Positions 48,424-56,500 of a stretch of DNA of 64,000 nt are shown in pieces. Below the pieces are notes generated by a model. It was not told the origin of the DNA and did no database searches. It saw only the letters and a program-made list of their open reading frames with translations. The translations under genes and the position numbers were made by a program. Source of the DNA: Hyphococcus sp. (lineage in GTDB: Bacteria > Pseudomonadota > Alphaproteobacteria > Caulobacterales > Parvularculaceae); assembly GCA_021776375.1 (NCBI GenBank), contig JAJFGA010000010.1, positions 1 through 64,000 on the forward strand. Direction: 5' to 3'. How positions within the stretch are numbered: the first letter of the stretch is position 1; the number at the start of each line of letters is the position of its first letter.

Positions 48424-49956
48424 TTAAACCGCTGTTGCAATTTGAGATAATGATAAGGCGACTGCACCCTCACGACGGCGATAGCTTACGGCTTCGGCGA
48501 TGTGGCGGCGCTTAACGCCGGCGGCGCCATCAAGATCAGCGAGCGTGCGGGCGACGCGCTTTATTCTTGTATAGGCTCTGGCCGAAAGACCGAGCGCTTC
48601 TGCGGCGCGCGACAATAGCGCGGCGCCCTGCACATCCGGTTCGGCGGCTTGTGTCAGTGCTGCGTCGCTCAGCGCCGCGTTGGTGGCGCCCGATCGCGAT
48701 ATTTGCGCTTCGCGCGCCGCGGCGACGCGCGCGGCGACCGTTGCCGTGGTCTCGCCGTTTGCCGGTGCAGCGAGATCACCCGGGGTCACCGCTGGCAGCG
48801 CGACGGTCAAATCCATCCGGTCAAGCAACGGTCCGGAAATGCGCGATTGATAAACTTCTTCGCAATTTGGGCCGCGCCCGCAGGCGCGTCCGCTCGCCCG
48901 GCCATAGCCGCAACGGCACGGGTTCATCGCCGCAATCAACTGGAAGCGCGCCGGATAGCGGACATGGAAATTGGCGCGGGCGATCAAGACGTCGCCGGTC
49001 TCCAGCGGCGCGCGCAAACTGTCCAGCACGGGGGCTGAAAATTCCGGCATTTCGTCGAGAAAAAGGACCCCGTGATGGGCAAGCGAGGCCTCGCCCGGCT
49101 TGGCGCGAATGCCGCCGCCAATCATCGCCGCCATCGAAGCGGAATGGTGCGGCGCACGGTAGGGGCGCATTCGGGTCAGCCGCCCGTTTTCCAACAGCCC
49201 GGCAAGCGACTGAACCATCGAGACTTCAAGCATTTCCGCCGGGGTTAGGGGTGGCAACAGCCCGGCAAGGCGTGCCGCCAGCATCGATTTACCGGCCCCT
49301 GGTGGACCAACCATGAGGAGATTATGACCGCCCGCGGCGGCGATCTCGAGCGCGCGCTTGGCGGTTTCTTGGCCCCGCACGTCAATAAAGTCGGCGACCG
49401 GCGCCGGCGCCTCAAGCGCGCCCGGTTCCGGCTTTGAAAGGATTTGCGTACCCTTGAAATGATTGACCAGCTGGATCAGTGATTTCGGGGCAATAATATC
49501 CGCCTCTCCGCCGGCCCAGGCCGCCTCGGCGCCGCTGGCGGATGGGCAGATCAGACCGAGCCCAAGCGCATTTGCCGACACCGCCGCCGGCAGAGCGCCG
49601 GCGACCGGCGCAATCGAGCCGTCGAGCCCAAGTTCGCCCATCACCGCAAAGCCGTCCGCGGCGTCATGGGGCGCTGCGCCCATCTCAATCAGCACCCCGA
49701 GCGCGATGGCGAGGTCATAGTGGCTGCCTTCTTTCGGCAGGTCGGCGGGCGCCAAATTGACGGTGATCCGTTTCGGCGGCATGCCCAGCCCGACCGCTGA
49801 CAATGCGGCGCGAACACGCTCTTTCGCCTCCGAAACCGCCTTGTCCGGTAAACCGACAATGGCGAAGGCGGGCTTGCCGCCGGTGAGCTGCACCTGAACC
49901 GTCACCGGAGCCGCCTCGACCCCGTGAAATGCGAAAGTAGTAATCTGGGCGACCAT
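48424..49956 (-). CDS. YifB/ComM-family Mg-chelatase-like AAA+ ATPase
   Basis: A protein of about 510 residues. An N-terminal ChlI/Lon-like domain (FHGVEAAPVTVQVQLTGGKPAF, PADLPKEGSHYDLAIALGVL) precedes an AAA+ core with Walker A GPPGAGKSMLA, and a C-terminal ChlI domain (RIKRVARTLADL, IAEAVSYR). ComM is a branch-migration helicase that helps natural transformation in several bacteria. The start is ATG 49956; upstream in-frame codons are not conserved-looking. Confidence 0.9.
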   Translation of the reverse strand: MVAQITTFAFHGVEAAPVTVQVQLTGGKPAFAIVGLPDKAVSEAKERVRAALSAVGLGMPPKRITVNLAPADLPKEGSHYDLAIALGVLIEMGAAPHDAADGFAVMGELGLDGSIAPVAGALPAAVSANALGLGLICPSASGAEAAWAGGEADIIAPKSLIQLVNHFKGTQILSKPEPGALEAPAPVADFIDVRGQETAKRALEIAAAGGHNLLMVGPPGAGKSMLAARLAGLLPPLTPAEMLEVSMVQSLAGLLENGRLTRMRPYRAPHHSASMAAMIGGGIRAKPGEASLAHHGVLFLDEMPEFSAPVLDSLRAPLETGDVLIARANFHVRYPARFQLIAAMNPCRCGYGRASGRACGRGPNCEEVYQSRISGPLLDRMDLTVALPAVTPGDLAAPANGETTATVAARVAAAREAQISRSGATNAALSDAALTQAAEPDVQGAALLSRAAEALGLSARAYTRIKRVARTLADLDGAAGVKRRHIAEAVSYRRREGAVALSLSQIATAV

Positions 49957-50122
49957 AGATTTCCCCGATTTGTCGTTACGCCAGTGAACCATATTGCAGG
50001 CAAAAAGAGAACATTACAAGAACAGAAACAATTAAGCTGCAATCACGGCAGAAATCAGCAGCTATTCACAGCAAATAAGCCAGCCGAGTTGCGGGCCGGG
50101 AAGTTTTGTCACAAGACACTAA

Positions 50123-50185: not shown

Positions 50186-52060
50186 ATGACAATCGCCTTA
50201 TCCCCGCCCAAGCCGGTTATGACGTTGCGTGTCGGAGTTACCGGTCACCGCCAGGCTCGTCTGCCGGCCGACCAGTTCGACCGGATTAGCGATCAAATCC
50301 AAATGATACTGGATTTGGCGGCGAAGGGGCTGGCGACAGCATATGCGCAGTATACGGATGACTACGCTGACGATGCGCGCCAATTGTTTTTTGTCAGCGC
50401 GCTTGCCGATGGCGCCGACACGCTTGCCGCCAAGCGGGCCATAGACGCGGGATGGCGCTTATTGGCGCCGCTGCCGTTTTCGAGGGCCAGCTATGCGCGG
50501 GATTTCTCGACAGAGGACCGCGAGCAGTTTGAGGCGCTTTTGAATGAGGCGGACGCTGTCGCCGAGCTTGATGGGTTGCGCATGACGCCGGCGGATGAAG
50601 AGCGGGCTTATCTTCAAGCCGGTCTCGTCACGGTCGATCAGTCTGACATTGTCATCGCCGTCTGGGATGGCAAGGGCGCCCGCGGCGTTGGCGGCACGGC
50701 AATGATAAAGGACGAAGCCTTGTCTTTGGGCAAGCCCGTGATCTGGGTAAACGCCGCGGCCGACAAACCGCCGGTTTTTTTGGCGGCGGAAAAGATTGAG
50801 GGTCCTGCGTCGCCGGAAGCTGTTCATGCAGCTATCGAGGCGGTGGTCGCGCCTCCGCCAAGCAGCGAAATTGAACACGCCTTTTCCGGCGAGAAAACCC
50901 ATGCGCTGGCAGCATATCGGACATTCGCGAGTGAGACAGCGCATCGCTTCAATTACGGGTCGTTTTTTCAATTCTGGGAAAAACTATTCGCCGGCAAATG
51001 GCCATTTAGCGTCAGGCTTACCTGCCCAACGCCGACCGAAGAGATTTTTGACGCGAGCCAATCGACACTGGCGCAAAAACTACAATCGTCAAACCATGAT
51101 CAGCACATTTTTAACAAGCTGATCATCCCGCGCTTTGCCTGGGCCGACCATCTCGCCGTTCATTACGGCAACCTCTATCGTTCTTCCTATTTCTTCAATT
51201 ACCTGTTCGCGGCGGTCGCGGTTTTTCTGGCTTTGTTTGATCTGGTCGCAGGCGGTCTCGGCTTTGGCAGCAAGACGCTTTGGATCGGCAGCGAGGTGGC
51301 GATCATTGTTATGATCCTGATCGTCACCACCGCTGGCAAGCGTGGCCGCTGGCATGAAAAATGGATCGATTACCGTCAGCTTGCGGAGGAACTTCGCCAA
51401 TACCGGCTTTATTACCTGACGCTCGGCCGTGACGCCGGCAGCGACCTTTCTAAAGGCGAGGGAGGCGAGGCCGCCAGTTGGGTTGATTGGTATTTCGCTG
51501 CAACTTGCCGTGAGGCGGGGATGACCTCAGGCGTGTTCGACGCGGCCTCCATCCGCCGCACCGCCGACACCGTTTTGAAAGAGGAAATCACACCGCAAAT
51601 CGCCTATCACGAGAAAAAAGCCGGCACGCTCCATATACTGGAACACCGTCTGCACCATCTTGGTGAATATGCTTTTGGCGCAACGCTGCTGGTTTGCCTG
51701 TTTTATCTCGGTCTCGTTGTCCTCGCCGGCAAGGAGCCGGGCCTGGCGACTTGGGCCTACGAAACCAAGAACGGCGCTAAAGGGGTAGTGACAATGATGA
51801 CCGGGTTCTTGCCCGCGCTCGGGGCGGCGTTTTTTGGTGTCCGGGTGCAGGGCGAATTCGGCTCAACAGCGGAGCGCTCTCACGCCACCGCCGCGCAACT
51901 CAAGACCCTTGCGGAAAAGTTTGAGGCGCTCAGCGCAGCGCAAACGCCGCGCCTGGAAGTCTTGCGCTTGCGGGTTGAAGAAACCGCGCGCGCCATGCTT
52001 ATGGAAAACATGGACTGGCGCATGCTCTATATCTCCAAGCCGTTGAATCTGCCCGGATAG
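50186..52060 (+). CDS. SLOG-SLATT-type membrane protein
   Basis: A 624-residue protein. The N-terminal half (about 12-190) reads as a Rossmann-like SLOG nucleotide-sensing domain: RVGVTGHR at 15-22 and the FFVSALADGADTLAAKRA stretch at about 68-85. The C-terminal half has four membrane helices in two hairpins (about 336-357, 365-384, 497-516, 535-553). A charged WIDYRQLAEELRQYR segment and helical tail match SLATT-type (SLOG-associating two-TM) proteins. Burroughs and colleagues predicted such proteins to be ligand-gated membrane effectors in conflict systems. It lies between yifB (divergent) and the TIR-SUMF1 gene. Family membership is by motif recognition. Confidence 0.75.
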   Translation: MTIALSPPKPVMTLRVGVTGHRQARLPADQFDRISDQIQMILDLAAKGLATAYAQYTDDYADDARQLFFVSALADGADTLAAKRAIDAGWRLLAPLPFSRASYARDFSTEDREQFEALLNEADAVAELDGLRMTPADEERAYLQAGLVTVDQSDIVIAVWDGKGARGVGGTAMIKDEALSLGKPVIWVNAAADKPPVFLAAEKIEGPASPEAVHAAIEAVVAPPPSSEIEHAFSGEKTHALAAYRTFASETAHRFNYGSFFQFWEKLFAGKWPFSVRLTCPTPTEEIFDASQSTLAQKLQSSNHDQHIFNKLIIPRFAWADHLAVHYGNLYRSSYFFNYLFAAVAVFLALFDLVAGGLGFGSKTLWIGSEVAIIVMILIVTTAGKRGRWHEKWIDYRQLAEELRQYRLYYLTLGRDAGSDLSKGEGGEAASWVDWYFAATCREAGMTSGVFDAASIRRTADTVLKEEITPQIAYHEKKAGTLHILEHRLHHLGEYAFGATLLVCLFYLGLVVLAGKEPGLATWAYETKNGAKGVVTMMTGFLPALGAAFFGVRVQGEFGSTAERSHATAAQLKTLAEKFEALSAAQTPRLEVLRLRVEETARAMLMENMDWRMLYISKPLNLPG

Positions 52061-52126
52061 TTTCACCCACCTAGAATTTCGGGCGCCGAAATGCCTAAAC
52101 CCTAGGTTTTTATTGCCAAACTGTAA

Positions 52127-52155
52127 GCCGCAAGGATGCGCCGGATGCTTGCGGC
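52127..52155. other. Intercistronic hairpin
   Basis: Perfect 8-bp arms GCCGCAAG (52127-52134) and CTTGCGGC (52148-52155) with a 13-base loop, in the 167-base gap between the SLOG-SLATT and TIR-SUMF1 genes. No T-run follows, so it may set expression ratio or mRNA processing rather than end transcription. Confidence 0.4.
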
Positions 52156-52227
52156 GCGCAGCAAAAATGCGCCATTTTGCAGTCCGCGCCAGCGGAATAG
52201 GGACGCTAGCGTCATGAGAGCAATCCG

Positions 52228-54261
52228 ATGTCTGTAATTTCCGTTCTACATGCGCCCCTCGATAAAGCCCTCGGCCAGAAAATTGCCGACGCGCTTTCGC
52301 GTTATGGCCATGCGCCGCGCCGCATCAGCGGTGATCCGTATACGGGCGACCTGGCGCTTGCAGACAATGCGGCGATTGTCATCTGGTCGGCGGCGGCGTT
52401 AAAGCTTGTCCGGCTTCATGAACAAGCGCGTGATGCGCTCCGCCGCGGTGCGCTGATTCCTGTAGTGGTTGGGGGAGCGTCAGCGCCGCGGGGGATCGAC
52501 GCGCCGGAGCCGGTGGATCTGTCGGGCTGGTCCGGCGACGACAATGACCCGCGCTGGCGGTTTGTTCTTGATGAGATCAAAATTGCCGCCCAGCGCCAAC
52601 AGCTCGGCGATTCAAACGTCTGGGCTGCGTCCCATGCGGGCCCCGATGTTGTGGATGAGCCCCATCCGGAAGACCCTTCATGGGAAAACCCACCCCTGGG
52701 TGAGGTCGCGTTGGACGATGAGGGGCTGGATATTCCGGCCCTCGACCAGCGCGCTGAAATTATTGAAGCGCGTGAAGATTTCATGCCCCCGCCGGCTCGC
52801 CCGGCGCCGGGAAGTTTTGGCAGAAAATTTAATCCCATGGCGGTTGCTCTGACCGGCGGGCTTGTGATTGGCGCTGTGGCAGGCGCGGCGATCTTGCTGG
52901 CGCCGAGTTTTCTGGCGACGCCAGGGGGCGCTCAGGCCGATGCGGTTAAGACCGCAGCGCCGCCGGAATTGGGCGCATTGGCTTTTGTTCAGCCTTCAGA
53001 TGATTTTAATGTCGCCGATAGCGAAACAACGGGCGCAAACGTTAATGTTGCTGCAGTGCTTAATCTTGATGCTGAGGAAATGCGACTAACGCCGCCTGCC
53101 TTGCGGGAGGCTGACGAGTTGGCGAGTGTTGCGCCAGAGCCTGATGTTGCAGCAGAAGACGCACAAATACTGGAGCTGGCGTCTGCGCTTGGCCTGAGCG
53201 AATACGGCGAGGAAATGTCGACGACGGAAGAGGCCGCGTTGCCGGATGAGATTTCTCCGGAGGATGCAGCCTTAGAGGCGGCGGCCCAAGAAGAGGCGGC
53301 AAAGATAAAGCTGTTTGCAGCCATCGCCCGCGGCAAGCAGGAATTGGCGTCTAACGGCGCCGATGCTGAGGCCCTGCCGGAAGAAGCTGCGCCTGACCTC
53401 GTCGCGCCAGAGGAGACGGCGTCAAACGAGGCTGGGCTCGATATCGTTGCGCCGGATGCGGCGCCGGCTACAAACCAGGCTCCGCCCATTCAAACTTTAA
53501 CGCCGCCGGCTGCCGGCAACGGCTTTAAAGAATGCGCCGATTGCCCGGAAATGGTGCGGCTTGAGGGCGGCGCTTTTCGCATGGGTGCGCCAGGCTCGGA
53601 GCCTGCGCGCCACATTTCCGAAGGCCCGGTGACGCCGGTGTCGATTTCCAAACCCTTCGCTATCGCTGCGACCGAGGTCACCTTCGCACAATGGGATGCT
53701 TGCATTGCCGATGGCGGATGCCGTTATCTGCCGCCGGACCAGGGCTGGGGCCGCGCTGACCGGCCAGCGGTCAATGTTTCGTTTGATGACGCCAAGGCCT
53801 ATGCCGACTGGCTGTCGAAAAAAACCGGCGAGACTTACCGGCTGCCAAGCGAGGCGGAGTGGGAATATGCAGCGCGGGCGGGAAGCAGAGGTCCGTTCGC
53901 CATCGGCGCGAGCCTGTCGTCAGCAACCGCGAACTACAATGCGTTTTATGCTTATGGCGGGACTAAGGGTGAATACCGCAAGCGGACGACGGCGGTAGCG
54001 AGCTTTGCGCCAAATAATTTTGGCCTTTTTGATATGCACGGTAATGTCTGGGAGTGGACCGCAGATTGCTGGGGTGACAGCCATGAGGCTGCGCCGCAGG
54101 ACGGTTCTGCGGCTGTTAGTGGTGATTGCACCCGCCGGGTCCTGAAGGGCGGGGCCTGGAACACCGGCGGCTGGCGCCTGCGCTCAGCCCATCGCATCGG
54201 TAAAACGCGCACTGCGCGCGAATATGACAACGGCTTTCGCGTGGTGCGCGATTTGAACTAG
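52228..54261 (+). CDS. TIR - transmembrane - SUMF1-fold receptor-like protein
   Basis: A 677-residue protein in three parts. Residues 1-120 resemble a TIR domain (SVISVLHAPLDKALGQKIADAL; AAIVIWSAAALKL; Glu65 in LHEQARDAL sits where the catalytic Glu of TIR NADases falls). One helix spans about 205-229, preceded by Arg/Lys, which predicts a cytoplasmic N-terminus. A long acidic, Ala-rich linker (230-430) leads to a C-terminal SUMF1/FGE domain (about 434-677: MVRLEGGAFRMG, YRLPSEAEWEYAARAG, GLFDMHGNVWEWT, GGAWNTGGWRLRSAHR). The catalytic FGE cysteines are missing, so it is likely a binding domain with a lectin-like fold. Its own ribosome site is GAGAG before the ATG. Confidence 0.8.
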   Translation: MSVISVLHAPLDKALGQKIADALSRYGHAPRRISGDPYTGDLALADNAAIVIWSAAALKLVRLHEQARDALRRGALIPVVVGGASAPRGIDAPEPVDLSGWSGDDNDPRWRFVLDEIKIAAQRQQLGDSNVWAASHAGPDVVDEPHPEDPSWENPPLGEVALDDEGLDIPALDQRAEIIEAREDFMPPPARPAPGSFGRKFNPMAVALTGGLVIGAVAGAAILLAPSFLATPGGAQADAVKTAAPPELGALAFVQPSDDFNVADSETTGANVNVAAVLNLDAEEMRLTPPALREADELASVAPEPDVAAEDAQILELASALGLSEYGEEMSTTEEAALPDEISPEDAALEAAAQEEAAKIKLFAAIARGKQELASNGADAEALPEEAAPDLVAPEETASNEAGLDIVAPDAAPATNQAPPIQTLTPPAAGNGFKECADCPEMVRLEGGAFRMGAPGSEPARHISEGPVTPVSISKPFAIAATEVTFAQWDACIADGGCRYLPPDQGWGRADRPAVNVSFDDAKAYADWLSKKTGETYRLPSEAEWEYAARAGSRGPFAIGASLSSATANYNAFYAYGGTKGEYRKRTTAVASFAPNNFGLFDMHGNVWEWTADCWGDSHEAAPQDGSAAVSGDCTRRVLKGGAWNTGGWRLRSAHRIGKTRTAREYDNGFRVVRDLN

Positions 54262-54550: not shown

Positions 54551-56500
<1,950 letters not shown>

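Follow-up and report, generated by a model that had tools for sequence, protein, structure and literature searches.

This analysis concerns two adjacent genes in a 64,000-nucleotide stretch of DNA from Hyphococcus sp. (contig JAJFGA010000010.1, positions 1 to 64,000), which as a whole is referred to below as the window. The first gene encodes P0001, in which a YpsA-like Rossmannoid SLOG domain is joined to four membrane helices with a SLATT match. The second, separated from it by 167 bases, encodes P0002, which comprises a TIR-fold domain, one transmembrane (TM) helix and a SUMF1 domain. This same-strand order is the one given in a preliminary description of the locus, and the pair was found to be real. 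The two proteins are very probably coupled in function. The explanation that we favour, to which we give slightly less than an even chance, is that they form a fixed chromosomal member of a widespread two-part system of TIR receptors and SLOG-gated effectors, in which P0002 would be a receptor or adaptor devoid of NADase activity.

P0001 passes the cut-off of the Pfam family PF14015 (DUF4231; 28.4 bits, cut-off 24.7) and lies just below that of the NCBIfam family SLATT_1 (40.1, cut-off 41). The SLATT architecture, two TM segments plus helices, is present in P0001 as two TM pairs. The SLOG domain resembles nucleotide-binding SLOG domains, among them that of ThsA with 3'-cyclic ADP-ribose (3'cADPR), and its loop positions are invariant across 37 sequences. 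In comparisons of the window with three relatives, the ratio of non-synonymous to synonymous substitution rates (dN/dS) was 0.14-0.17 for the SLOG part and 0.05-0.07 for the SLATT part. Pfam and PADLOC returned neither a SIR2 nor a macro match for P0001, and none of the PADLOC Ths models matched P0001 or P0002. On balance, P0001 is more plausibly than otherwise a membrane effector responding to a nucleotide made by a TIR protein.

Fold comparison supported the earlier proposal that the N-terminus of P0002 adopts a TIR fold, with CheY-like folds scoring close behind. Against the Pfam TIR profile, P0002 scored 17.4 bits, under the curated cut-off of 28, which four orthologues pass. The SUMF1/FGE-sulfatase profile matched at 1.2e-56, and PvdO is the nearest solved relative of this domain by sequence (6.6e-51). 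The GRKF motif ahead of the TM helix and the confinement of all six cysteines to the SUMF1 part are compatible with a topology in which SUMF1 lies outside and TIR inside, as in the suggested comparison with Toll-like receptors; the TIR domain of P0002 is N-terminal. No reverse transcriptase of the RVT_1 family was found in the window's own assembly, and hence there is no sign of a diversity-generating element.

In all counts below, the genus denotes the Marinicaulis-like Parvularculaceae, represented by 28 genomes including that of the window. P0001 is present in 17 of them, divided between contigs in two (G018 and G019), and all 17 carry a P0002 homologue directly downstream on the same strand, which bears out the proposed co-occurrence. 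A comM gene, intact or as a fragment, stands head-to-head with the pair in 14 of the 15 loci with an unbroken P0001, all but L074 (G012). Downstream, dnaK follows in 15 of the 17 loci, immediately or past at most about six predicted open reading frames (ORFs), and none was found within the examined stretch of L071 and L076. The gene names typA, dnaG, rpoD, hemB and comM were assigned by fit to Pfam families. Two genomes of another genus of the same family (G047 and G053) also carry TIR-SUMF1 beside comM and have no P0001. The locus between comM and dnaK is thus inherited in place and chromosomally fixed; contrary to the preliminary description, it is no mobile cassette in the genus, some relatives being on plasmids. 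For the other five genus genomes that lack P0001 (G001, G003, G005, G010 and G014), the stretches examined do not span the whole site. The simplest reading of the distribution is that SLOG-SLATT was lost in one subclade.

Table 1. Positions of the gene pair, its domains and the flanking marker genes in the window
Feature	Position	Strand	Remark
P0001, SLOG-SLATT membrane protein, 624 aa	50186..52060	+	predicted nucleotide-gated membrane effector
P0001 YpsA-like SLOG domain, residues 12-222	50219..50851	+	cytoplasmic side inferred
P0001 DUF4231/SLATT match, residues 318-414	51137..51427	+	Pfam 2.4e-6, above cut-off
P0001 first TM pair, residues 340-358 and 365-383	51203..51334	+	hydropathy; helices in structure model
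P0001 second TM pair, residues 496-514 and 534-552	51671..51841	+	hydropathy; helices in structure model
P0002, TIR-TM-SUMF1 protein, 677 aa	52228..54261	+	predicted membrane receptor/adaptor, TIR catalytically altered
P0002 divergent TIR domain, residues 1-128	52228..52611	+	fold; orthologues homologous to TIR_2; dN/dS 0.11-0.13
P0002 Gln66 codon CAA, at TIR catalytic Glu position	52423..52425	+	
P0002 single TM helix, residues 206-224, GRKF before it	52843..52899	+	
P0002 Ala/Glu/Pro-rich linker, residues 225-428	52900..53511	+	fast-evolving; dN/dS 0.28-0.36 (residues 201-425)
P0002 SUMF1/FGE-sulfatase domain, residues 439-674	53542..54249	+	closest solved relative PvdO
comM-like gene (Mg_chelatase family)	48424..49992	-	head-to-head neighbour; marker of conserved site
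dnaK (HSP70 family)	54551..56500	+	downstream marker of conserved site

Several variations were seen at this site. In L065, L071 and L080 (G011, G024 and G025), comM is broken into pieces that are separated by transposase-like genes (judged by eye) and by others, as though an element had entered it. Variable insertions occur 3' of TIR-SUMF1 in L067, L069, L070, L073, L074, L076, L082 and L085; the inserted genes are of the vWA/YfbK type (Pfam, L067 copy) or encode a 527-aa membrane-type protein (by eye).

The pairing extends well beyond the genus. A profile search of genome contigs with an alignment of the P0001 family returned 42 loci, 26 of them outside the genus, in Parvularcula, Hyphomonadaceae, sphingomonads, other Alphaproteobacteria, Acidobacteria, Sulfuriferula, Nitrospira and a Granulosicoccaceae bacterium. 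At 20 of these 26 loci, a TIR ORF lay within 3.3 kb of the SLOG-SLATT gene. Counted over ORFs of the same loci, TIR was found in 20 of 134 near ones and in 0 of 134 farther out (Fisher 8.9e-7), with a 3.3-kb limit chosen after the hits had been seen and loci that are not mutually independent. The hidden Markov model (HMM) used for TIR detection was built from 8 seeds, and those of L090, L095 and L096 are the partners in L118, L125 and L128; for these three loci and their near-copies L126 and L127, detection is partly circular. Pfam TIR_2 was above cut-off in all 12 of the 20 outside partners that were run. In place of SUMF1, the companion domains of these partner TIRs, as recognised by Pfam, include WD40, TPR, a BNR/YCF48 propeller, nSTAND1 with HEAT, RHS and a SIR2 domain preceding the TIR; in others no companion was recognised.

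Four plasmid records matched P0001, and in all three that were opened a TIR gene lies at most 1.4 kb from SLOG-SLATT. The neighbouring TIR was recognised by annotation and HMM in the Caballeronia SBC2 plasmid, by HMM in the unannotated Novosphingobium RL4 plasmid, and by annotation only in the Caballeronia Lep1P3 plasmid, where the HMM missed it and the P0001 match (H4) is weak, covering 40 per cent of the query at 24.8 per cent identity. The fourth match, H2 (Caballeronia SBC1), has a row equal to that of H1. Both opened Caballeronia plasmids are typed as mobilizable. Phage records yielded no match to the system, and no viral contig contained a close relative. Parvularcula lutaonensis (L090) has a TIR-WD40/SLOG-SLATT pair within an extra 5.08 kb, in place of which the aligned flanks in G049 (L155) are about 90 bases apart; the pair was therefore gained or lost there as a unit.

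The strongest argument for a common signal comes from the exchange of partners. A second candidate effector of 842 aa, encountered in the family to which the window's genome belongs, carries two hydrophobic N-terminal segments, TrkA_N, RyR and a C-terminal SLOG domain; TrkA_N was over cut-off in L092 only, Pfam recognising RyR alone in L094, L155 and one L156 piece. Among 299 genomes of the order, five encode this RyR-SLOG protein; the P0001 search matched its SLOG domain in all five, and each time a TIR gene accompanies it: TIR-SUMF1 in G029 and G037 (L092 and L093), TIR-WD40 in G047 and G049 (L094 and L155) and, with one intervening ORF, TIR-TPR in G059 (L156). All these TIRs carry the catalytic Glu. 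SLOG-SLATT, in turn, stands beside TIR-SUMF1 in the genus, TIR-WD40 in L090 and TIR-TPR in L124 and, past one ORF, in L091, so that all six combinations of three sensor types and two SLOG proteins occur. From this swapping in gene content, it would follow that TIR receptors and SLOG membrane effectors share a signal, which is probably a nucleotide. The coupling of TIR to SLOG-SLATT that had been proposed is thereby strong across the family, as seen in the 20 of 26 outside loci, the three opened plasmid records and the swapping.

The RyR-SLOG gene lies at 4451-6979 in L092 and has relatives in L093, L094, L155 and L156. A gene for an exported-looking protein (by eye) of 347-396 aa also either separates TIR-TPR from the SLOG effector or adjoins them (L091:6665-7855, L156:10218-11261 and L124:11722-12801). 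This protein had no Pfam match in any of the three loci and is a possible third component.

Within the genus, the TIR domain linked to SLOG-SLATT is catalytically altered. In canonical TIR-SUMF1 relatives (L084, L092 and L093), whose domain was aligned to BtTir and AbTIR, a VWWD motif is present and the Glu lies 12 residues past the strand-end Ser. A gap-free alignment of P0002 from the strand-end Ser to the LIPV motif places Gln66 at the position of this Glu, and the VWWD/alpha-B stretch is missing, so that P0002 does not show the BB-loop region plus catalytic Glu expected of a TIR NADase. Residue 66 is Gln in all 17 copies linked to SLOG-SLATT. The preliminary description had chosen Glu65 for mutation; the catalytic place is residue 66, and position 65 varies among the 17 copies (E 8, D 4, K 2, V 2, N 1). 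Gln66 and the DLSGW and DPRWRF motifs are invariant in 16 sequences. In the 15 family copies at loci without SLOG-SLATT, residue 66 is A in 6, Q in 5, K in 2, L in 1 and V in 1, and Glu occurs in none of the 15, second copies included. Outside the genus, the Glu is kept in 18 of 20 TIR partners, at the same spacing in 17 and at the right Trp distance in L119; in the Acidobacteria partners L120 and L123 it is shifted one residue later. According to excerpts of PMC10022894, ThsB requires Glu85 for stimulation of ThsA, and the catalytic mutants tested include E85Q, a Glu-to-Gln exchange like the one seen at residue 66 here. We consider it likely, as judged from these residues, that the P0002 TIR is not an NADase.

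The domain is nevertheless not decaying. Between the window and four close relatives, dN/dS was 0.11-0.13 for the TIR domain and 0.13-0.15 for SUMF1, versus 0.23-0.42 for the segment after the TIR and 0.28-0.36 for the TM-linker part. The TIR domain is under purifying selection, and since it is selected yet catalytically altered, the data point to a binding or adaptor role.

Five loci (L079, L080, L081, L088 and L089) have two nearby TIR-SUMF1 copies at the comM site. K or A takes the place of Gln66 in the second copies, and both copies in L088 and L089 lack this Gln.

Other TIR proteins could supply the signal. On contig C38, the window's own genome encodes two Glu-bearing TIR proteins, TIR-TM-TPR (P0004) and TIR-TM-WD40 (P0003), whose genes are convergent and lie between typA and dnaG/rpoD (L144:7166-11445). 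TIR_2 was over cut-off away from the P0001 site in all 15 of the 17 SLOG-SLATT genomes that were scanned (G024 and G026 being outside the scan). TIR-WD40 is present in 14 of 17 genomes with SLOG-SLATT and in 2 of 11 without; these counts, like those of TIR_2, track few clades and are suggestive only. Supply of the signal in trans by intact TIRs is a possibility that we hold tentatively, at somewhat less than even odds, our confidence being lowered because most genomes without SLOG-SLATT also have TIRs.

The convergent TIR-TPR/TIR-WD40 arrangement is repeated in L145, L146 and L147. Glu-bearing TIR-SUMF1 paralogues occupy a fixed site beside a Suv3-like helicase gene and close to hemB in L157, L158, L159 and L160, in whose examined stretches no SLOG match was found. 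In G006, three TIR genes are clustered with a caspase-like gene (by eye) and other conflict-type genes (L164:3973-17297 on C40).

The favoured explanation takes many of the TIR receptors of the system to be membrane-anchored. Another TIR protein of the cell, itself intact and activated by its own sensor domain, would make an ADP-ribose-type nucleotide. This nucleotide would bind the cytoplasmic SLOG domain of P0001, whose two 2TM units may then oligomerise or open, resulting in membrane leak or depolarisation. P0002, with SUMF1 outside and a TIR inside that would not cleave NAD+, would most likely act as a receptor or adaptor and modulate the effector, either through contacts of its TIR with active ones or by retaining a nucleotide that it does not turn over. 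A broader version, which we regard as rather unlikely, holds that interchangeable TIR receptors and SLOG-gated effectors share one ADP-ribose-type signal, as a bacterial counterpart of ADP-ribose-gated channel signalling, and that the system was domesticated in Marinicaulis-like bacteria, where the E-to-Q TIR-SUMF1 would serve as a dedicated regulator and intact TIRs would act in trans.

Several observations weigh against the favoured explanation. Six genus genomes (G002, G004, G008, G022, G025 and G027) have TIR-SUMF1 beside comM and no P0001; TIR-SUMF1 therefore has a use of its own, and the strict dependence between the two genes that had been supposed does not hold. Gln66 is kept in five of the six first copies of genus genomes without SLOG-SLATT. 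On the comM tree, which has 20 rows, a root for drawing only and no power to separate gain from loss, the SLOG-SLATT label needs 2 changes, and the independent events are thus few. Of the nine scanned genus genomes that lack SLOG-SLATT, eight also have TIR_2 elsewhere, G003 being the exception, so that the presence of TIRs does not discriminate. TIR-WD40 is missing from the SLOG-SLATT genomes G007, G013 and G020; these three carry, at a different fixed site, a TIR-SUMF1 paralogue that has the Glu. No TIR ORF was found at six of the 26 outside loci (L122, L129, L130, L133, L134 and L137), with L129 and L134 interrupted by contig ends. In PADLOC, P0002 had no match and the single match of P0001 was ShosA (E-value 0.043).

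The alternative that survives best concerns purpose and is compatible with the favoured mechanism: the pair could be a core envelope- or stress-sensing module, perhaps tied to the dnaK/dnaJ region, with mobile relatives put to other uses. We judge this plausible, at roughly one chance in three. It agrees with the fixed comM-dnaK site, with the presence in these genomes of further TIR receptors that are likewise fixed at core sites (typA-dnaG/rpoD and Suv3-like helicase/hemB), with the lack of phage-record matches and close viral-contig relatives, and with the neighbourhood, in which PADLOC matches of five other window genes were weak and partial, or absent. However, some genomes of the genus lack SLOG-SLATT, relatives occur on mobilizable plasmids and in the extra 5.08 kb of P. 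lutaonensis that G049 lacks, and TIR and SLOG are described as known immune modules in the portions of PMC9503650 consulted here. The role may lie in phage defence or in envelope physiology; that the pair is fixed in the core chromosome speaks either for a defence system that was domesticated or for a physiological function.

It is unlikely that the P0002 pseudo-TIR makes direct contact with the SLOG domain or SLATT helices of P0001 and opens or locks that protein without any nucleotide, as a self-contained outside-to-inside switch. The strict same-strand adjacency, the low dN/dS of a catalytically altered TIR and the invariance of Gln66, DLSGW and DPRWRF would all suit such contact, but the SLOG loop positions are invariant as well, and most partner TIRs from outside the genus retain the Glu, which suggests that a nucleotide provides the link in the family. 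Even less probable is the original model, in which SUMF1 senses an outside ligand and the P0002 TIR is itself an active NADase whose product gates P0001. Gene order, adjacency, topology and the TIR fold agree with it, as do the intact TIR-SUMF1 proteins that adjoin RyR-SLOG in L092 and L093; the claim that this TIR makes the signal is nonetheless not supported, given Gln66 at the catalytic place in every linked copy, the missing VWWD and alpha-B stretch and the need of ThsB for Glu85 in the excerpted PMC10022894. Chance neighbourhood of functionally unrelated genes, for which TIR-SUMF1 without SLOG-SLATT at the same site and the 167-base gap might be cited, is strongly disfavoured and has a negligible probability, given adjacency in 17 of 17 genus genomes, 20 of 26 outside loci and three of three opened plasmid records, and a pairing that endures while the partner type changes.

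If the favoured explanation is true, bacterial TIR signalling includes receptor-like proteins with freely recombined sensors and effectors, and SLOG and RyR modules sit on membrane effectors of this signalling. The conserved Glu-to-Gln TIR provides a natural test of whether a TIR keeps a role after NADase loss.

In the portions of PMC11204291 consulted here, Thoeris consists of a TIR protein and an effector of SIR2-SLOG or TM-macro type, with SLOG in one effector type and membrane output in the other. As in Thoeris, a TIR protein is encoded here beside an effector with a nucleotide-sensing domain. In contrast to Thoeris, the P0001 effector joins SLOG to SLATT-type TM helices instead of being a SIR2-SLOG or TM-macro ThsA, the TIR partners bear large sensor domains, and the genus-linked TIR lacks the catalytic Glu. 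With neither an intact TIR nor a known ThsA type, the pair is therefore not classed as Thoeris; of the earlier label of a Thoeris-like system, the TIR beside an effector stood, and the conserved Glu and a ThsA of either type did not. The wider SLOG-SLATT/TIR family probably works like Thoeris. The founding paper on SLOG and SLATT, Burroughs et al. 2015, reportedly predicted such systems and may already show this exact pairing; among the matches listed from the open-licence literature, no title or abstract opening names it.

Extracts of PMC9503650 describe TIR genes beside 2TM SLATT genes in firmicute phages, SLATT being a predicted ADP-ribose-regulated membrane effector, and the excerpted PMC7159879 places SLATT beside nucleotide-related effectors such as TIR in GAP1 systems. 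The present loci resemble the firmicute-phage neighbourhoods in having a predicted ADP-ribose-regulated SLATT next to a TIR, and differ in the fusion of SLOG to two TM pairs, in receptor-like TIR partners and in their location on chromosomes and plasmids. FGE and CLec domains are proposed as sensors in conflict systems (PMC10907252 and PMC7159879, in part), and the SUMF1 domain of P0002, presumed to lie outside, is comparable with SUMF1/FGE proteins, PvdO and CLec sensors. TRPM2-type ADP-ribose-gated channels are also among the closest known systems. SLOG-like and RyR domains are found in animal TRPM and ryanodine channels as well. Finally, phage RyR-domain proteins bind or cleave 2'/3'cADPR, as stated in excerpts of a 2026 preprint (PMC13232231), which fits a RyR-SLOG effector encoded beside TIRs.

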